NCBI GenBank assembly: GCA_019247515.1
Contig: JAFAOS010000504.1
Location: forward strand, 1-64,000
Source of the DNA: Chloroflexota bacterium
GTDB taxonomy: Bacteria > Chloroflexota > UBA6077 > CF-72
Direction: 5' to 3'
DNA length: 64,000 bases
Below the pieces are notes generated by a model, which worked only from the letters and a program-made list of their open reading frames with translations, searched no databases and was not told where the DNA came from. Position numbers and translations under genes: made by a program. This document shows positions 4,796 through 14,358 of this stretch, piece after piece. Numbering within the stretch: position 1 is the stretch's first letter; each line of letters starts with the position of its first letter.

Positions 4796-5752
4796 ATGGC
4801 CTTGAGCTTTGGCGTGGCGCTGGACTTCGGCTCCAGGCTGCGGCTGCTGGCTGAGCAGCTCGAGCGGCAGGCTCGACTGCTGCGACTCGCCGAGGAGGCT
4901 GGGTTCGAGCTGGTAGCGGCCGGCGAGAGCTCCGCGGCGGGTGGGTTTCACCTGCCGAACGCGCTGCAGGTGCTGGCGGCTATCTCGGCGCGGACCCGAC
5001 TGCGGCTGTGCACGGGCATCACGCTGCTGCCGGCCTGGGATCCCTGGAAACTGGCGCTCGACGCGGCGCAGCTCGACCAGCTCTCGGGCGGGCGCTTCGT
5101 GTTGGGGGTGGGCATCGGCACCCCCGCGCTGCAGGCGCGGGCGGGGTGGCCGGGCGAGGCGATCGGCCAGCGCGTCGACGAATACCTCGCCGCGCTGCGC
5201 GCACTGTGGTCGGGCCAACGCGCGTACCACGGTCGGCAACTGCACATCGACGCCGGGCTGCCCATCCTGCCGACAACCGCCGACCGGCCGCCGATCTGGG
5301 TCGGCGGGGGCGTGCGGCGGTCGGCTGTTCGTGCCGCGCGGCACGGTGAGGGCTGGTACGCCGGGGTCACCTTTCGCCTCTCGGACCTCCCAACCAACAT
5401 CGGCTGGTATCGCGACGCGCTGACCACGGCCGGCAAGCCGCTCGACACCGCTCGGGTGATCGTCAATCGCCTCGCGCTCGCGGGCAGGACGTCCGCGGAG
5501 GTCACCGAATTGACCCAGGCGTATCTGGGCGAAACCCTGCGAGCCTACGGCGGCAGCGAGGCGCTGCAGACGACAATCGACGACATGGCGCTTGTCGGCA
5601 CCGCGGATCAGATCGTGGCGCAGGCCGAGCGCTATCGCGACCTCGGGGTCACCCACATCTTCGCGCGATTGAGCCTCGACGAAATTCCCGTCGAGGTGGC
5701 GCAGCGGACCGTCGAGATTTTTGGACGCGAGGTCATCCCCCGGTTCCCATGA
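4796..5752 (+). CDS. LLM-class (luciferase-like) F420/flavin-dependent oxidoreductase
   Basis: A 318-residue TIM-barrel enzyme of the bacterial luciferase superfamily, which oxidises organic substrates using FMNH2 or F420. Typical stretches are the substrate/cofactor loop TRLRLCTGITLLP, the phosphate-binding region LSGGRFVLGVGIG, and the late barrel strands with PPIWVGGG. The start ATG at 4796 gives a protein beginning MALSFGVALDFG; any upstream extension would run through the tRNA. A -10-like TACGAT at 4782-4787 puts the expected transcription start at or near the ATG, suggesting a leaderless mRNA. The next gene overlaps by 4 nt. The substrate is unknown. Confidence 0.88.
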   Translation: MALSFGVALDFGSRLRLLAEQLERQARLLRLAEEAGFELVAAGESSAAGGFHLPNALQVLAAISARTRLRLCTGITLLPAWDPWKLALDAAQLDQLSGGRFVLGVGIGTPALQARAGWPGEAIGQRVDEYLAALRALWSGQRAYHGRQLHIDAGLPILPTTADRPPIWVGGGVRRSAVRAARHGEGWYAGVTFRLSDLPTNIGWYRDALTTAGKPLDTARVIVNRLALAGRTSAEVTELTQAYLGETLRAYGGSEALQTTIDDMALVGTADQIVAQAERYRDLGVTHIFARLSLDEIPVEVAQRTVEIFGREVIPRFP

Positions 5753-6891
5753 CTCGCAACCCTGGCCTGACCTCGGGCAATGCCCTCAAGCTCGGTTTGT
5801 TCGGCTCCAACTGTTCGAACGGGCGCTCGTACACGACCGTGCCCGGGCGCTGGGACGCTTCCTGGGACAACAATCTCAAGCTTGCCCAGCTCGCCGACAG
5901 CCTCGGACTGGAGTGCATGGTGCCCATCGCGCGCTGGAAAGGCTACGGCGGCGAGACCAACGTCAATGGCTCCAGCTTTGAATCGATCGCCTGGGCGTGT
6001 GGTCTCCTGGCGGCGACACAACGCATCAACGTCTTTTGCACGGTCCACGTGCCGCTGCTGCATCCGATCATCGCCGCCAAGCAGATGGCGACCGTGGACC
6101 ACGTCGGCGGAGGCCGCCTGGGCGTGAACGTTGTCTGCGGCTGGAACGAAGACGAGTTCCACATGTTCGGGCTCGACAAGCACGAGCACGACGACCGCTA
6201 CGCGCAGGGCGAGGAGTGGTGGACGATCATTCGGCGTGTGTGGTCCGGCGAGCCGGCGTTCGATTTCCGCGGACGTTTCTATGACCTCCTGGCGGTGGAA
6301 GGCCAACCGACGCCCTGTACGGGCGAGCGTCCGTTGATGATGAACGCCGGCAGCTCGCCACGCGGACGTCAATTTGCGATCGAGCACTCCGACATGCACT
6401 TCGACGGCGTTCGTTCGCCCGAGGAGAGCGCGGCGCGCATCGCCCAGAGCAAATCACAGGCGCGCGCGCTCGGACACGACCTGCAGGTGTGGACGCCGGT
6501 CGGCGTGATTTGCCGCGCTACGCAGGCGGAAGCGGACGATTTTTTGCGGCACCTGGTCGACAACGCGGATTTTGGGGCGCTCGGCTACCTGGCGGAAATG
6601 CACGCCAACGACGCGCGGGGACGCACCGACGCGGAAGGTGTCCTGCGTCAAGCGGGCGAGGGGCCCCTCGAACGTCAGGTCCTCGCCCGGGGCTCGTACT
6701 GCGCCGTCGGGAGTCCAGACCACGTTGCCGCGGAGCTGCTCAAACTCCACGCGGCCGGCTTCGACGGACTGGTTCTCAATTTTTTCAGTTATCTGGATGA
6801 GCTACCCTATTTCGCCGAGCAGGTGCTGCCGAGGCTGGAACGCGCAGGCGTGCGCTACCGCCACTCGTCCACCGAGACGGTCTTGCCGTAG
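5749..6891 (+). CDS. LLM-class flavin-dependent monooxygenase (RutA/SfnG/SsuD-like)
   Basis: A 380-residue luciferase-family monooxygenase that overlaps the previous gene by ATGA, so the two form a translationally coupled pair. Typical features of the FMNH2-dependent alkanesulfonate/pyrimidine/dimethylsulfone monooxygenase branch are NCSNGRSYTTVPGRWDASWD near residue 25, the cofactor loop GGGRLGVNVVCGWNEDEF (about 121-138), a HDDRYAQGEEW segment, and the insertion NAGSSPRGRQFA. It probably attacks a C-S or C-N bond or an amide using reduced flavin from a separate reductase; none is nearby. It converges on the selenoprotein gene, with a 37-nt overlap of coding ends. Confidence 0.9.
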   Translation: MTRNPGLTSGNALKLGLFGSNCSNGRSYTTVPGRWDASWDNNLKLAQLADSLGLECMVPIARWKGYGGETNVNGSSFESIAWACGLLAATQRINVFCTVHVPLLHPIIAAKQMATVDHVGGGRLGVNVVCGWNEDEFHMFGLDKHEHDDRYAQGEEWWTIIRRVWSGEPAFDFRGRFYDLLAVEGQPTPCTGERPLMMNAGSSPRGRQFAIEHSDMHFDGVRSPEESAARIAQSKSQARALGHDLQVWTPVGVICRATQAEADDFLRHLVDNADFGALGYLAEMHANDARGRTDAEGVLRQAGEGPLERQVLARGSYCAVGSPDHVAAELLKLHAAGFDGLVLNFFSYLDELPYFAEQVLPRLERAGVRYRHSSTETVLP

Positions 6892-8495
6892 CTGGCCCCA
6901 AAAATCCGCCAGTAGCCGTTGGTTTCGCCACCGACGACCACCACCTGGATCTCGTGGGGCTGGAACATGTGGATCAGCTCTTCCGGGTCCGCCTTCAGCA
7001 TCGACGCGTACGGCTCCTCGCCGTACGTGGCTCGCGGGTACACGTAGTTCTGGATGAGCTGGTAGTCCCAGTATTCGCCAGCGGGCATGCACGCGTTGTT
7101 GTAGATCCAATCCACCAGCTTGGCCTTGGTGTCGAAACCGCCGCGATCGATAAATTGTTGGGCGGTGATCGGATCCAGCACCAGCAGCGGCTGTTCGCGT
7201 GGGTCCATGCCGCGGAGCATGCTGCGGACGTGGTTCTGCCAGTATCTCTCGCGCAGGCCGAGCGTGAAGGCGGTGTGCCGCACGCCGCTGAACATGCTGA
7301 CGGTGCTGTCGGAGGCCTTGAAGCCGTGGGTGACGTGGAGCGGCTCCCACGGACTCCGCTCCTCGTTTTCGGCAAACGTGACGTTGTTATAGCTGTAGTT
7401 GTTGCCCTGCGATCCGAGATAGGTCAGACCGGGTTCAGAACCGCCCTGCAGGTTCTGCGACAACAGCGCATACGCGCGCCCGATCGTGGCGTTGGCGTGG
7501 TTGTAGGGGCCGAGCGCGCCGATGCCCCAGTTCATGTTCAGCTCGTGGCGGATCGGTCCGTTCACGATGCACATGGCGGCGGCTGAACTGGAGGTGCTGC
7601 CGCGACCGGAGACCCCCGCGGCGGCAATGGCCAGGATGACTGGAAAATACTCTGGACGCGCCCCCGCCATGACGGCGTTGACCGCCACTTTCTCGACGGT
7701 GTATTCCCAGAATTCGCGGAAGTGGGTCGGACGCATGTGTCCGACGACCTCGTCTGGCTTGTGGCTGGTGTGCGCCAGCATCTCGGCGACGCGTTCTTCG
7801 GTCGGCAGCACGATGGGCAGCTGGTCGGTCCAGTGGTTGTCGAGAAACAGCTGGCGGAGCTCGTCCTCGGAGCCGGCCTCGACCAGGCGCGGAGTTGTGC
7901 GCTCGTAGACGACCTTCTCCAGGTCCTGCGCATCGAAGGGACGGGTGAGAGCTTCGATCACCTCCTGCATCAGAGGCCGACCGGTGACCTGGTCGTTGCC
8001 GTCGACGTAGGCGCGCAGCTCTTTGGGCGTCTTGCCCATGACCGGCATCGGCACGAACACCGCTCGGGCGCGGGGCATGCCGTTGACGCGGGCTACCGAG
8101 CGAACCGCGCGCTCGAAGATGCGGGTGTGCACCGCCACGGTGGGGACGCCGTACCTGGCGTCAATGGTCATCGCGTGCACGGCGACCGCCGGCGCGCAGG
8201 TGCTTCAATGGCCGACGCCGACGATGGCGGCGTCTCCATTCGACTTGATGTACTCCCAGGTCTCGGGATCGTCGCGGGTATAGACCGAGTTCAAGCGGAT
8301 CAGTTCGGCCTGGACGCCAGGCATGTGCTCCTGGAACCAGGCCTGCATCTGGCCGAGGAAGATGTCGGCGTCGTCGAAGCGACAGTCGACGAGAAAGACC
8401 TTCTTGCCTTCGAGGGTGTCCAGGCGCGGGGCCATGTCCTTGGGCGTCACGCGGGGCGGGTAGCCCTGGGGGTTCAGAACCGTGAGAGTAGTCAT
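6855..8495 (-). CDS. UGSC-type selenoprotein with in-frame UGA (Sec97)
   Basis: Read from the ATG at 8495, the frame meets TGA at 8207-8205 (codon 97) and then stays open to 6855, giving 546 residues. Around the TGA the product reads IVGVGH-U-STCAPAVAVHAM. This is the redox arrangement U-x-x-C in the strand-loop where UGSC-family (seleno)proteins carry Sec or Cys. The part before TGA (residues 1-96) has no other end-of-domain feature. The part after it lacks a ribosome binding site and would begin inside a beta-strand, so one UGA-decoded protein is the better reading. A stem-loop with a GGUC apical loop follows the UGA directly. The C-terminal half (about 180-546) is a globular domain I cannot assign. 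It lies downstream of a sugar ABC importer operon on the same strand. The reaction is unknown; a thiol/selenol redox role is inferred from the motif. Confidence 0.78.
8172..8198 (-). promoter_or_regulatory. candidate bacterial SECIS element
   Basis: Immediately 3' of the UGA on the minus strand, the RNA can fold TGCG/CGCG, GC/GC and CGGC/GCCG around the tetraloop GGTC (plus-strand 8184-8187), with a C-A mismatch and a bulged U. The apical loop starts 17 nt after the UGA, inside the range expected for bacterial SECIS elements. The GG of the loop matches the guanines recognised by SelB, and a bulged U is also seen in the E. coli fdhF element. This was folded by eye. Confidence 0.6.
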
Positions 8496-8522: not shown

Positions 8523-8546
8523 GGAGCTCGCGCATGCGCGAGCTCC
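8523..8546. terminator. 24-nt perfect palindrome between SBP and selenoprotein genes
   Basis: GGAGCTCGCGCA at 8523-8534 is followed directly by its exact reverse complement. Flanking CCAAT/ATTGG sequences extend the symmetry with small bulges to about 8516-8555. There is no T-run on either side. On the minus strand it lies just after the solute-binding protein gene (stop at 8560) and before the selenoprotein gene (start 8495). It probably acts as an attenuator or mRNA-stabilising hairpin that sets different expression of the two genes. Confidence 0.6.
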
Positions 8547-8559
8547 CACCCAATAAAAT

Positions 8560-9909
8560 CTAGCTCTCGCCCAGGTCCTTCAGCGCGCGCAGCACGGACT
8601 GTTTTTCGTTGTTGAGCTGATCGGCCACGTCATTGAACACTGTTTGTGCGGGCTCGTCGCTGGTGATGATGCGGTCCAGGCCCATGCCGATGATGTTGTC
8701 GCCGTTGGGCACCAGCTCGCGGGCCGAGTCCTGAGGTCGTGTCTTGGGTAGCTGATCGACCGTCGTCTTGAAGTTCGGATGTTGCTGGTAGAACGTCTGC
8801 ATCTCGGGGCTTTGCAGCGCGGCCTGACGCACGGGCATGTAGCCGGTGTTTTGCGACCAGAAGACGGTGTCCGTGCCCGTCGCATACGCCACCCACTTCA
8901 TCGCCGCCTGTTGCTTCGCTTTGTCGGTCGTCGCGGCAGTGATCGCCATGCCCGAGCCGCCCGTGCAGCATCCGAAGCCGGCTGGACCCTCGGGCAAGAA
9001 CGCGGTGCCGACCTGGAATTTCGCGGCCGATTCGTGGCCCGCCAGCGCCGCCGTGGAGTCCAGATATGCCAGGTTCGCCGCCGAATTGAAATCGGTCGAC
9101 ACGTCCTGCGAGGCTTGCGCGATGCCCGCGCTGACCATGGACCGCCACAGCTCGCCGGCTTGCACGGAGTTCGGTTCCTGGATCCGAATGGTGAAGTCCG
9201 GATCCGAATACACGCCTCCGTAGGCCCACACGATTCCCTGGAACACCCATGCCTCGGTGGTGGGCCCACCGCCCAAGCCAAACGCCGCGGGCGCCAGCGG
9301 CTTCAGCTTCGGAGCAAAATCCTTAGTGAACTCGTCCCAGGTATTCGGCCCCCGATCCGGCAAGCCGGCCTTGGCCCAGGCGTCCTTGTTGTAATAGAGG
9401 ATCGGCGTGCTGCGCGCGAACGGCAGGACGACCTGCTTGCCCGCGCGGATCGTCTCCTTGTAGAAGACGTCCACGTAGTCCGACGGATTGACGCTTTCCG
9501 CTTTCATCAGGTCGTCGAGCGGCTGCAAGGCTTTGTTGAGGTAGAACTTGAACCACCACACGTCGGAAAGCAGGACCACCTCCGGCGCGTTCTTGGCCTG
9601 AATCGCGGCGGTCAACTTGTTGGCGAGCGTCGCGTAGTCGTTCTGATTCTCCAGGTTGAGCTTGACGTCTTGTTGGGCCTGATTGAAGCGGTCCACCAAC
9701 TGCTGCTGAACGTCGGCGTTGTGGCCGGTGAACGCACCCCAGTACGTGATGGCAACTTGAGACCCGGTGGCGGCTACCGTCGCCGGAGCGGCGGTTGGAC
9801 CAGCAGCCGGAGCGGAGGTCGTCGTCGGCGACGAACACGCCGCGATCAGCGCGACCGCCGCCGTGCCACCCAGTCCCTTCAACAGATCGCGTCGATGCAT
9901 CGATGTCAT
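8560..9909 (-). CDS. extracellular sugar-binding lipoprotein of an ABC importer (family 1, UgpB/MalE-like)
   Basis: A 449-residue periplasmic-type binding lipoprotein. The start at 9909 gives MTSMHRRDLLKGLGGTAAVA, a twin-arginine-like signal (HRRDLLKG) followed by the lipobox IAAC, so it is membrane-tethered. A Ser/Thr/Ala/Pro linker precedes the fold that begins ITYWGAFTGHNADVQQQLVD. Family-1 features include VVLLSDVW, the hinge segment ILYYNKDAWAKAGLP and a late KWVAYATGTD. It probably binds a sugar, glycerol-phosphate or glycoside. Its gene follows the two permeases in one operon. A ribosome binding site (AAGGTGGG) lies about 13 nt upstream. An alternative start at 9900 changes nothing important. 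Confidence 0.92.
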   Translation of the reverse strand: MTSMHRRDLLKGLGGTAAVALIAACSSPTTTSAPAAGPTAAPATVAATGSQVAITYWGAFTGHNADVQQQLVDRFNQAQQDVKLNLENQNDYATLANKLTAAIQAKNAPEVVLLSDVWWFKFYLNKALQPLDDLMKAESVNPSDYVDVFYKETIRAGKQVVLPFARSTPILYYNKDAWAKAGLPDRGPNTWDEFTKDFAPKLKPLAPAAFGLGGGPTTEAWVFQGIVWAYGGVYSDPDFTIRIQEPNSVQAGELWRSMVSAGIAQASQDVSTDFNSAANLAYLDSTAALAGHESAAKFQVGTAFLPEGPAGFGCCTGGSGMAITAATTDKAKQQAAMKWVAYATGTDTVFWSQNTGYMPVRQAALQSPEMQTFYQQHPNFKTTVDQLPKTRPQDSARELVPNGDNIIGMGLDRIITSDEPAQTVFNDVADQLNNEKQSVLRALKDLGES

Positions 9910-9935
9910 ATGCGTGTGCAAACCCACCTTCTCAC

Positions 9936-10910
9936 TTACCCTTTGACCGCGCCCGCGGCGATTCCTTCCACGATGTGGCGCTGCACCAGCAGGAACAGCA
10001 CCAGAACTGGCAACACCACGTAGAGCGTGCCGGCCATGACCACGCCCCACTCGGTACCCGTTTCCTTCTGAAACAGCAGCGCGATACCGACCGACAGCGG
10101 CCGCATCTCCGTCGAATTGGTGATGATCAGCGGCCAGAGATAGTCATTCCAGCGCTGAACGGCGGTGAGCAGAATCAGCGTGGCCACGACCGGCCGGGAC
10201 ATCGGCAGCACCACATTCCAGAGGGTGCGGAGGTGATTGGCGCCGTCCACTCGGGCCGCATCCAGCACCTCACGTGGCAAGCTCAGAAAGTGCTGGCGCA
10301 TGAGAAAGGTGCCGAAGGCGGAGACGAAACCCGGCAGCAGCAGTCCCTGGTACGTATTTGTCCAGCCAACCAGTGCCAGGGTCAAGAAATTGGGCAGGAC
10401 CGTGAACTCGTCGGGAATCATGAGCGCCATCAACAGCAGCAGAAAAACGGCGTTCTTGTGTGGAAACTTCAAGTAGGCGAATGCGTACCCACAGAAGACC
10501 GCTTGCAGGATTTTGACGGAGCCGCTCACCAGCGTATACAGCAAACTATTGACGTAGAAGTTGCCAAAGGGCGCCTGGTTCCATGCGGCGGCGAAATTGT
10601 CGAGCGTCGGCGCCAGCGGAATCCACGTGGGGGGCGCGGTGAAAATCTCCTGGTTGGTCTTGAAGGCGGCGAGCAACATCCAGTAGATCGGGATGCCAAC
10701 CAGGACGACGGCGATCGCCATCGCCGTATACCCGAGTCCGTGGAGCAGATGCTTGCCGATCGGCGACGCGGAGCGGATCGACCTTGTGCCCGACGGCCCA
10801 GCGCCGCGGGAGGTGGCTTGCGATGGACCCCCGTCCGTGCGCGAAGGGACCGCTTCGGTCGGGGCGGCCGTCACGGCGCGTGAAGTCGTGGAGCGCGCGA
10901 GATCGACCAT
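9936..10910 (-). CDS. carbohydrate ABC transporter permease (MalG/UgpE family)
   Basis: A 324-residue inner-membrane permease with six predicted hydrophobic segments after a hydrophilic, Thr/Arg-rich N-terminus of about 50 residues. The cytoplasmic EAA loop is present (LDAARVDGANHLRTLWNVVL, about residues 220-239), which is where the ATPase docks. The N-terminus is longer than usual, and a later start is possible. Its start overlaps the preceding permease gene by about 1 nt. The importer operon has no ATPase gene, so a shared MsmX/UgpC-type ATPase elsewhere is likely. Confidence 0.92.
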   Translation of the reverse strand: MVDLARSTTSRAVTAAPTEAVPSRTDGGPSQATSRGAGPSGTRSIRSASPIGKHLLHGLGYTAMAIAVVLVGIPIYWMLLAAFKTNQEIFTAPPTWIPLAPTLDNFAAAWNQAPFGNFYVNSLLYTLVSGSVKILQAVFCGYAFAYLKFPHKNAVFLLLLMALMIPDEFTVLPNFLTLALVGWTNTYQGLLLPGFVSAFGTFLMRQHFLSLPREVLDAARVDGANHLRTLWNVVLPMSRPVVATLILLTAVQRWNDYLWPLIITNSTEMRPLSVGIALLFQKETGTEWGVVMAGTLYVVLPVLVLFLLVQRHIVEGIAAGAVKG

Positions 10911-11836
10911 CAGTAGGTCACTCGCCGCTCGACGTAGCGCAACTGCACGGCGGTCAGCACCAGCATCACCACGAACAAGACCACGGCATACACGGCGGCG
11001 GTGCCGGCATGAAACGCCACAAACGCCTGGTTGTAGTACTCGTAGAGGAGGGTGGTCGTGGCGATGACCGGTCCACCCTTCGTCATCACGTTGATGATGT
11101 CAAAGGCCTGGAAGGACAGCAGCAGTGTGGTGACGAGCAGAAAGAACGTGATGGGCGCCAGGCCCGGTAACGTCACCGCGCGGAAGCGGTCCCAGGCGCT
11201 GGCGCCGTCGACGCGGGCCGCTTCGTACAACTCCTTCGGAATGCCCTGCAGACCGGCCAGAAAGATCACCGCCGCGTAGCCAAGGGTCTTCCATACGTAC
11301 ACGATGATGATCGCCGGCAGCGCCCAGTGGAGGTCGACCACCCAGCGCGGTGACGGCAGCCCGACCCAACCCAGGGCGGTCTTCAGGATGCCCCAGTTGG
11401 GATCGAAGATGAAATACCAGACCACGGCGACCGCCGCGCCCGACAGGACGGTCGGGGTGAAGATGACCGTGCGCGCGCCATCGCGGAAACGCAGTGCTTG
11501 ATTCAGAAGCAGCGCCAGCGCCAGACCGAAGACCAGCGTGAGCCCGACCGATGCCGCGGTAAAGATGACGGTGGTGAGCACGATCTGCCAGAAACGGGGA
11601 CTGCTCAGCACGCTGATCCAGTTGTCGAGTCCGACGAAGCGCTTGTCGGGCGAGATCATGTCCCAATCGGTAAAGCTGAGTGAGACGTTCTGGACGAGCG
11701 GCCAGTACGCGAAAATGGCCAGCAGCAGCAGGTTCGGAACGACGAACGCCAGAAATGTGGCGTATTCGCGCCACTCGCGGCGTGACCGGGCGCGCTGGTC
11801 GGCGGCAAGAGATGCGGCGCTCACGATGGCAGGCAT
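10910..11836 (-). CDS. sugar ABC transporter permease (MalF/UgpA family)
   Basis: A 308-residue membrane protein with six hydrophobic helices. The first is FLAFVVPNLLLLAIFAYWPL and the EAA loop is ELYEAARVDGASAWDRFRAV (about residues 205-224). It pairs with the downstream MalG-type permease and the lipoprotein binding protein, in the order permease, permease, binding protein. Its first half shares DNA, in another frame, with the run-on end of the cyclase reading frame described next. That overlap is far too long to be natural and argues for a broken cyclase stop rather than a problem with this gene. Confidence 0.93.
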   Translation of the reverse strand: MPAIVSAASLAADQRARSRREWREYATFLAFVVPNLLLLAIFAYWPLVQNVSLSFTDWDMISPDKRFVGLDNWISVLSSPRFWQIVLTTVIFTAASVGLTLVFGLALALLLNQALRFRDGARTVIFTPTVLSGAAVAVVWYFIFDPNWGILKTALGWVGLPSPRWVVDLHWALPAIIIVYVWKTLGYAAVIFLAGLQGIPKELYEAARVDGASAWDRFRAVTLPGLAPITFFLLVTTLLLSFQAFDIINVMTKGGPVIATTTLLYEYYNQAFVAFHAGTAAVYAVVLFVVMLVLTAVQLRYVERRVTY

Positions 11837-12444: not shown

Positions 12445-14358
12445 TCAAACCAGAACGAGGCGTTCGGCGAGGATCAGGGCGTCGGTTGGCCAGTAAATGG
12501 CGGGCCGCGGCTGCCGAACCTCGGGCTGACCGGGCATGGGTCGGCACGACAGGACCATGGCCTGCCACTGCTCGGGGATAGCCGCCCGACCGTGGACCGC
12601 GCCGAGGAGCGCACCGCAGATGGCGGCGTTGGTATCCGTGTCGCCGCCTTTTCGGACGGTAGCCACCAGGCCTGCTTCCAGACTCGCGGCGTGCAGCAGC
12701 TGGAAAAACGCGTTCTGGAGCGCGACCAGCACCCAGCCCTGTTGCGACAGATAGTCGACGGGCGCCACGTCTCGGGCAGCCTCGACGGCGTCGATCAGCC
12801 CTGCATCAGCTTTGTGTTGACGTAACCATCGCAGCGCGTGGGCACAGGTCTGCCGCGGATCGAGACCTTCGCGGATCGCCGCCGCCAGGGTCACGGCGAA
12901 CACGGCCGACGCCGTCTGAGCAACCTCGTGCGGATGGGTCAGTTGCGCGTCCTGCCGCGCGGCCATCGCAACGCTCGCCGGATCACGCAGCGCGCCCCAG
13001 ATACCCAGCGGGCTCACGCGCATGAGCGCGCCGTTGGCCTGGCTGTGCTCGTTGGCGGCCGCGCAGGCGCGGGCGGCGGCCTGGCCGGCGCGCACGTCGT
13101 CGGCCGCGATCGCGCTCAGCGCTCGAGCGGTGGTCCCGCCGACGTCGAATGGTCGACACCACGGGTGATCGCAGGCTTCCGGCGCCTGAGTATGGGTCCA
13201 ACCGTGGTACCAGCCGGCGTACGCGGCGGCGACCGCCTCCTGCTCAAAACCGGCGCGCGCGACCACGGTCCGCGCCAGCAGCAGCGCCAGCTCGGAATCG
13301 TCCGTGGGCTGGCCCGCGATGATCGAGTGCGGTCCGCCAGAGGCGAGTTGGCGCGGGCCGCCGTCCGGGTAGCGACTGGCAACCTGGTCCTCGGACTGAA
13401 ACTCTACCAGCGCACCCAGCGCGTCACCTGCCAACTGGCCCAGGAGGCAGCCGTGGGCGCGGTTCAGAACTCCGGGGTCGTGCACAAGTTTGCCGACCTG
13501 CGCGCGGAGTGGCGCAAGGTCGGGCGGCGGCGCGGCCGGACCGAATCCGCTACGCGAGGTGCCCTCCCACTGGCGCTGTACCAGCTCGCGCGCGACGTTC
13601 GGGTGACCGGCAAACACGCGCGAGACCGAGTCCGGAGCATCCGTCCGATAGGTGATCGCCGCGCCGTGCTCGTCCAGCATGACTCCGCCGGCGGCACGTA
13701 CGAGGGCGTGACCCGCGGCGTAATCCCAGGCACGCAGATAGTTCAGCGACAGCGTTGCGGCGTGATCGCCGGTCGCAACCAGCGCCAGGCGGTAGGCGAT
13801 GCTCGGAGTGCTGACGTACCGTGCGGGCGCGACGCACGCCAGGTACCCGACCGGATTGCGGTTACCGGCCTGCGAGACTCCGAGGACGTCCTGCGGCTGC
13901 AGTTGTTCGGACCACGTGCGGTGCGGGAGCGCGTGGCCGTTGCGATGGATGGGTCCGCAACCTTCAGCCCAGCAGATCAGGTCGCCGCGATCGTCGGGCG
14001 CGTCGACAGCGCAGACGACGCCGAGAACGGGGACGCCTTCGCGGACGAGGCCGATCGCGATGGCGTGGCCGCGGTAGCCGCGCTGCATGGTGGTGGTGCC
14101 GTCGTTCGGGTCGACGAACCACACCGGAGCGTGCGTGTCGTGGGCTGAGCGGGCGCCGGTCTCCTCGCCGACAAAGCCCCAGGCCGGGAAGGCATCTTCC
14201 AGGATGGCGCGAATGGTCAGCTCGGCCTCGTCGTCGGCGGGACAGTGGCCGATCTCGCCGCGGGGCCCCTCGGAGCGGGCGCATTCGGCCAGCAGAATGG
14301 CGCGGGCCGCCGCGGTGGCTTTGAGCGCGACGTCGAGCGCGCGCTGGAGCTCAGCCAC
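12445..14358 (-). CDS. fusion of inositol-monophosphatase-family domain and ADP-ribosylglycohydrolase
   Basis: A 637-residue two-domain protein in one uninterrupted frame. Residues 1-265 are an inositol monophosphatase-superfamily domain with the metal motifs GEE (64-66), DPNDGTT (83-89) and WD (211-212). A Pro/Ala-rich linker (about 266-295) leads to an ADP-ribosylglycohydrolase (DraG/ARH) fold. That domain has GCLLGQLAGDALGA (303-316), the metal-binding TDDSE (352-356) and GGDTDTNA (571-578). All metal ligands known for both families appear intact, so both activities are plausible: phosphate-ester cleavage and hydrolysis of an ADP-ribosyl bond. The Ldh2-type dehydrogenase gene lies 18 nt upstream on the same strand. 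I do not recall this fusion as a described architecture. Confidence 0.88.
   Translation of the reverse strand: MAELQRALDVALKATAAARAILLAECARSEGPRGEIGHCPADDEAELTIRAILEDAFPAWGFVGEETGARSAHDTHAPVWFVDPNDGTTTMQRGYRGHAIAIGLVREGVPVLGVVCAVDAPDDRGDLICWAEGCGPIHRNGHALPHRTWSEQLQPQDVLGVSQAGNRNPVGYLACVAPARYVSTPSIAYRLALVATGDHAATLSLNYLRAWDYAAGHALVRAAGGVMLDEHGAAITYRTDAPDSVSRVFAGHPNVARELVQRQWEGTSRSGFGPAAPPPDLAPLRAQVGKLVHDPGVLNRAHGCLLGQLAGDALGALVEFQSEDQVASRYPDGGPRQLASGGPHSIIAGQPTDDSELALLLARTVVARAGFEQEAVAAAYAGWYHGWTHTQAPEACDHPWCRPFDVGGTTARALSAIAADDVRAGQAAARACAAANEHSQANGALMRVSPLGIWGALRDPASVAMAARQDAQLTHPHEVAQTASAVFAVTLAAAIREGLDPRQTCAHALRWLRQHKADAGLIDAVEAARDVAPVDYLSQQGWVLVALQNAFFQLLHAASLEAGLVATVRKGGDTDTNAAICGALLGAVHGRAAIPEQWQAMVLSCRPMPGQPEVRQPRPAIYWPTDALILAERLVLV

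Follow-up and report, generated by a model that had tools for sequence, protein, structure and literature searches.

A predicted selenocysteine codon in a Chloroflexota gene that fuses a UGSC-type domain to an unnamed partner domain

A single TGA separates two consecutive open reading frames on the minus strand of a Chloroflexota contig, and the question raised by this locus is whether the two frames encode separate proteins or the halves of one selenoprotein. We analysed the locus within a 64,000-nt stretch of DNA (hereafter the window), together with the assembly to which it belongs (G000; 8.3 Mb, 579 contigs) and further genomes of its class and phylum, the compared genomes being mostly MAGs.

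The joined reading frame and its orthologues

The frame at 6855-8495 (minus strand) contains one internal stop, the TGA at codon 97 (8207-8205), and ends with TAG. Read through, it yields a product of 546 aa whose residues at the junction are GVGH-U-STC. Gene calling with translation table 11 splits this frame into ORFs at 8205-8495 (96 aa) and 6855-8180 (441 aa). This is the outcome foreseen in the initial annotation of the locus, which had proposed that both ORFs belong to the same frame joined by the TGA, and all 16 of the orthologues described below agree with that proposal. The features of the joined gene are as follows.

6855..8495, minus strand: fused selenoprotein gene, 546 aa, codon 97 UGA predicted to encode Sec, stop TAG (16 TGA orthologues; uninterrupted Neorhizobium Cys orthologue)
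8001..8480, minus strand: UGSC domain, residues 6-165 (PF24696, E=4.5e-24, above the gathering score, covering the TGA)
8205..8207, minus strand: UGA codon, predicted selenocysteine U97 (TGA conserved in orthologues; Cys, TGC, in L035 and L091)
8196..8198, minus strand: Cys100, second redox residue, U-S-T-C motif (invariant across the UGSC-domain alignment, A7)

When the joined protein is compared with Pfam, the UGSC family (PF24696) matches across the TGA with 85.9 bits against a gathering cut-off of 25. The NCBIfam model NF041046 also crosses the TGA, at 58.8 bits, and does not reach its equivalog cut-off of 125. The proposed assignment of this site to the Sec/Cys redox site of the UGSC family is therefore upheld in part: Pfam membership and the GVGH-U-S-T-C residues stand, whereas the literal U-G-S-C motif is absent, the whole orthologue group carrying U-S-T-C, and the NCBIfam score lies below the level for an equivalog.

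To collect orthologues, we ran profile searches against the genomes of the class and against 400 from the phylum, and complemented these with a scan of genome contigs. All 16 full-length USTC sequences, the window's included, have TGA at codon 97, and identity to the window protein ranges from 67 to 86% across the orthologue group. Within this group, codon position 3 diverges ~2 to 8 times as much as position 2 on both sides of the TGA. Substitution is protein-like both upstream and downstream of the TGA, and a joined frame with TGA at the identical codon in all 16 sequences is far beyond what is expected by chance.

Two further orthologues, both alphaproteobacterial (L035 and Neorhizobium L091), carry Cys (TGC, within GVGHCSTC) in place of Sec. 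In the alphaproteobacterial contig L035, the C-terminal domain carries on downstream in another frame. On Neorhizobium galegae plasmids, a 64%-identical Cys homologue occupies one uninterrupted 543-aa frame, which directly demonstrates that both halves belong to a single protein. The copy in N. galegae VafX2 (L090 9962-11630) has been annotated as a pair of overlapping hypothetical proteins and is apparently frameshifted, whereas that of HAMBI 1141 is not. As the initial annotation had predicted, nearly all aligned homologues have U or C at the position of codon 97. It had also named the arrangement that would speak for separate proteins, namely homologues that end at this position as independent proteins, and none was seen among the USTC homologues found.

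The downstream ORF, moreover, lacks a conserved internal start. In place of the putative GTG start at 8180 (codon +9), L034 has GCG and L033 has TTG, and for a second candidate, the ATG at +12, three sequences have ATA or ATT. The start of the downstream half had first been placed within a conserved strand, which proved incorrect: GTG 8180 sits in the helix that follows the Sec loop and is unconserved.

Were the TGA a true stop, the halves would be independent proteins or a pseudogene, and standard-code gene calling does yield just these two ORFs. We regard this reading as extremely improbable, given that the TGA is fixed in 16 sequences with purifying selection on either side, that the internal start is unconserved and that a conserved RNA signal lies 3′ of the TGA; the single 543-aa frame of Neorhizobium, with TGC, in our assessment already refutes it.

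The predicted SECIS element and the selenocysteine machinery

The RNA signal is predicted directly downstream of the UGA.

8181..8195, minus strand: predicted SECIS core, 15 nt, GCGCCGGCGGTCGCC (invariant in 16/16 Sec orthologues, changed in Cys orthologues)
8171..8198, minus strand: predicted SECIS hairpin with GU in the apical loop (fold of 8165-8204; paralogue covariation)

At codons +4 to +8 past the UGA (GCG CCG GCG GTC GCC), all synonymous sites are identical in 16 of 16 genes. Of the 185 degenerate columns whose residue is invariant, only eight have a fully invariant codon, and codons +4 to +8, in succession, account for five of the eight. The resulting 15-nt run 3′ of the TGA is the longest invariant run in the gene, the next longest being 8 nt, and it is broken in both Cys orthologues. 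This run is, on our prediction, the SECIS element. Folded as a single sequence, the hairpin is no more stable than shuffles (z -0.06), a measure that is uninformative at this GC content, and the SECIS was therefore judged by conservation and covariation. UGSC-type paralogues have a hairpin at an equal distance, in which columns 17-21 pair with columns 27-31 in 92.9% of cells, with seven two-sided (compensatory) changes compared to 1.6 in shuffles. In bacterial SECIS elements, the G and U of the apical loop form the contact with SelB. No Rfam family matches the hairpin.

A further expectation of the initial annotation was that this lineage has a selenocysteine pathway, and selA, selB, selD and a UCA-anticodon tRNA-Sec were indeed all found in the assembly. 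Contig C530 carries selA (546 bits) with selB (352 bits) beside it, selD (366 bits, contig C29) has an in-frame TGA of its own (GAGUACK), and two tRNA-Sec genes with anticodon TCA both score above the Rfam cut-off. These two tRNA genes (L001 and L002, on contigs C41 and C171) are nearly identical and may be strain variants, given the 6% contamination of the assembly. The tetranucleotide composition of the window correlates with that of the Sec-machinery contigs at r 0.94-0.95 (0.94 for the selA/selB contig), compared to 0.77-0.83 for other GC-rich genomes, which makes contamination unlikely as the source of the Sec genes.

Across the class, selA is present in 26 of 29 genomes. In G328, a 77% complete genome with a TGA orthologue, selA and selB were not detected and tRNA-Sec is present; in G400, selA was not found and both selB and tRNA-Sec are present. 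The 98% complete genome G343, which has a fused UGSC gene with an in-frame TGA (L084, SSUGSC), yielded no selA candidate and no selB above the cut-off, and its tRNA-Sec is borderline at 48.8 bits. A simple rule by which Sec orthologues occur with selA and Cys orthologues without it fails, as the Cys-bearing alphaproteobacterium has both selA and tRNA-Sec.

These observations also bear on how the UGA might otherwise be read. Its decoding as some other amino acid, or by unspecific readthrough, would sit poorly with the Cys that both Cys orthologues have here and the U or C of nearly all aligned homologues, with the full Sec machinery in the genome, and with a SECIS constraint that is kept with UGA and lost with Cys; we give it very little credence. 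A selenium-dependent switch, producing the 96-aa product without selenium and the full enzyme with it, would be a consequence of Sec recoding in general. The 96-aa fragment, however, stops inside the domain just short of the redox site and shows no sign of use, and such a role is most improbable. We thus return to a selenoprotein spanning both halves: the sequence comparisons make Sec incorporation at codon 97 nearly certain, and that the frame at 6855-8495 encodes one fused protein with selenocysteine incorporated is very likely. By itself, this Sec call is a good correction of annotation.

The C-terminal partner domain and gene neighbourhood

The long uncharacterised C-terminal domain that had been ascribed to the 546-aa protein withstood further searches.

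6858..7898, minus strand: C-terminal partner domain, residues 200-546, of no named family (no Pfam, NCBIfam or PDB match)

Residues 200-546 (~350 aa) gave no matches in Pfam, NCBIfam or PDB, whether searched alone or through a profile built from 28 sequences, and the 28 relatives of the domain showed no consistent family match among them. AlphaFold, working from alignments of only 4-5 sequences, returned a mean pLDDT of 49 for the full protein and 36 for the C-terminal domain; only the UGSC domain was partly confident, and the model of the C-terminal half was unusable.

The partner domain is repeatedly associated with UGSC. In the window's assembly, the two are fused at three loci (the window, C462 and C564) with one TGA each, and contig C424 has two places where a separate partner gene adjoins a TGA-containing UGSC gene. 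Searches with the partner-domain profile find relatives, mostly fused or adjacent to UGSC, in 16 of the 29 genomes of the class and in 42 of the 400 from the phylum. The genome G010 alone has 27 matches, amounting to about a dozen UGSC/partner pairs (for example L053 and L061). In Natrinema (haloarchaeal) and on Roseovarius plasmids, a Cys-containing ‘UGSC family (seleno)protein’ adjoins a ‘hypothetical protein’. From these fused and adjacent arrangements, we take the unit to be a two-domain or two-subunit system. Some fused relatives retain the architecture but have lost both Sec/Cys residues (L095, L097 and L078; DMGTS in Vibrio and Sporomusa, DTRSG in G185), suggesting that the redox pair is dispensable for the action of the partner domain. 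No relatives were found on viral contigs.

Every UGSC match in G010 has one in-frame TGA, an unusual expansion of one selenoprotein family. On the Acidovorax sp. T1 plasmid p2-T1 (L094 5929-8000), UGSC and partner lie in one frame with a TGA; p2-T1 is a conjugative IncP plasmid, and the selenoprotein gene is near insertion sequences. The p2-T1 gene is annotated merely as a 97-codon hypothetical, an example of the systematic loss in annotation of such genes, which are cut at the TGA.

The immediate neighbourhood of the gene in the window comprises the following.

8560..11836, minus strand: ABC importer, upstream (solute-binding protein SBP_bac_8/1 and two BPD_transp_1 permeases by Pfam; operon link uncertain)
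4796..6891, plus strand: two luciferase-like monooxygenase genes (Bac_luciferase, PF00296), convergent with the selenoprotein gene
8523..8546, no strand: perfect 24-nt palindrome GGAGCTCGCGCATGCGCGAGCTCC in the interval between importer gene and selenoprotein gene (read from sequence)

The two flavin monooxygenases described as facing the gene are present as two Bac_luciferase proteins on the plus strand, the nearest NCBIfam models being SfnG/RutA/DmoA and F420_Rv2161c, all below cut-off. The gene had also been placed at the end of a sugar ABC operon. The importer genes are there, but membership of the selenoprotein gene in their operon is doubtful, because the palindrome (which lacks a T-run) lies between the solute-binding-protein and selenoprotein genes and because no conserved importer neighbour was seen outside the genus. 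An ABC importer or luciferase-like neighbourhood kept around all orthologues was looked for and not found; it recurs in some only. Elsewhere in the window, the ORF at 12448-14358 joins an inositol-monophosphatase-like N-terminus to an ADP-ribosylglycohydrolase-like C-terminus.

Transporters and catabolic enzymes near UGSC/partner copies vary from copy to copy. Malonyl-CoA genes neighbour the Neorhizobium copy, a tripartite tricarboxylate transporter binding protein the Variovorax copy, and aconitase X genes those of Vibrio and Sporomusa, while amidase, LigB, CoA-transferase and enolase-superfamily genes are found around C424. In three orthologues (L116, L117 and L121), a TrxR-like flavoprotein (CASC or CATC) is encoded directly downstream, starting within ~15 bases of the 3′ end, and in Roseovarius trxB lies downstream of the UGSC gene.

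A proposed two-part enzyme and its relation to known systems

By profile comparison (hhalign), the UGSC domain is related to GrdB at E=1.1e-6 and a probability of 91%, and the alignment pairs the Sec columns of the two. The GrdB set was drawn from the same phylum, three of its four members coming from genomes of the same class, and the one member checked matches PF07355 (E 2e-119) and scores above the TIGR01918 cut-off. Weak NCBIfam matches to selenoprotein B also occur among UGSC-domain members (TIGR01917 in 5 of 14, TIGR04483 in 3 of 14). An identity of the partner domain with GrdE/PrdA was rejected, as profile comparison shows no relation, and no PF09338 (GrdE/PrdA) gene was found in G000.

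Together, these comparisons suggest that the product is most likely a two-part selenoenzyme. In the mechanism we propose, the SECIS hairpin directly 3′ of UGA-97 would be bound by SelB, leading to delivery of Sec-tRNA. U97 and C100 (U-x-x-C) would constitute the redox site of the UGSC domain, related to the Sec part of GrdB, and this domain would form one enzyme with the covalently joined ~350-aa domain, which related systems encode in a neighbouring gene of its own. The partner domain may bind or activate a small organic substrate, which Sec97 would attack or reduce; Cys100 would then resolve the selenenylsulfide or adduct, and recycling could be carried out by thioredoxin or a dedicated thioredoxin-reductase-like flavoprotein. 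We infer the reductase activity, substrate class and electron route from context and distant homology, on which a substrate-specific reductase role for the fused protein has about an even chance of being correct.

The main rival is a generic peroxide- or disulfide-reducing selenoprotein in place of a substrate-specific catabolic reductase. The U-x-x-C motif and the TrxR-like neighbours would suit such a protein, and UGSC is usually grouped with thiol-redox selenoproteins, at least in the accessible part of PMC13188914. It fits less well with the large conserved partner domain, with kinship to GrdB and not to thioredoxin, and with neighbouring transporters and catabolic enzymes that differ among copies; furthermore, about a dozen pairs in one genome suit substrate diversity better than housekeeping. 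We consider this alternative the less likely of the two.

On the substrate-specific reading, the UGSC selenoproteins, which are plentiful in environmental metagenomes, may supply the redox component of a widespread class of two-component selenoenzymes, with an undescribed family as the other component: a GrdB-like Sec domain without GrdE/PrdA, expanded in some genomes into many substrate-specific copies that reduce or reductively cleave different organic substrates, the halves working as one in the fused USTC form. We put this forward tentatively, as somewhat short of an even bet. Through the fusion, an environmental selenoprotein family that is among the commoner unexplained ones becomes linked to a partner family without a name and to the chemistry of glycine reductase, and some operons point to a TrxR-like electron donor. 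The role of UGSC proteins thereby becomes directly testable, either with the fused gene or with the Cys form found in nature.

UGA recoding as selenocysteine is known already, as is the UGSC family, whose selenoproteins were reported in a 2008 analysis of Global Ocean Sampling data (PMC2398784) and are listed in current reviews (PMC9312934, PMC13188914); the accessible parts of these three sources give neither a UGSC function nor a partner domain. Set against largely open-access literature, what this analysis appears to add is a USTC subgroup with its fusion, the regular pairing of UGSC with a family that has no name, and the kinship to GrdB.

Like known UGSC selenoproteins (PF24696/NF041046), the window protein has the homologous domain, Sec in the first position of U-x-x-C and Cys homologues. 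It differs from them in its USTC motif, its ~350-aa C-terminal fusion and its NF041046 score (58.8 vs 125 bits). With GrdB, GrdF, GrdH and PrdB (TIGR01918, PF07355; glycine, sarcosine, betaine and D-proline reductases) it shares profile homology at the Sec site, and GrdB-type proteins have a UG[S/T]C-type motif and a strand-Sec-helix layout, as does the UGSC domain. In contrast to GrdB-type proteins, the window protein has just U97 and C100 and not UxxCxxC, and the ~350-aa N-terminal PF07355 part of GrdB is missing (no PF07355 match); GrdB pairs with GrdE/PrdA, from which the partner domain here differs. FarB, a GrdB-like selenoprotein with a proposed role in fluoroacetate dehalogenation, is a GrdB/GrdE-type complex without a UGSC domain or such a partner, as described in the accessible part of PMC10838667, and it offers an earlier example in which the Sec of a GrdB-like protein would serve as nucleophile towards a small organic acid.
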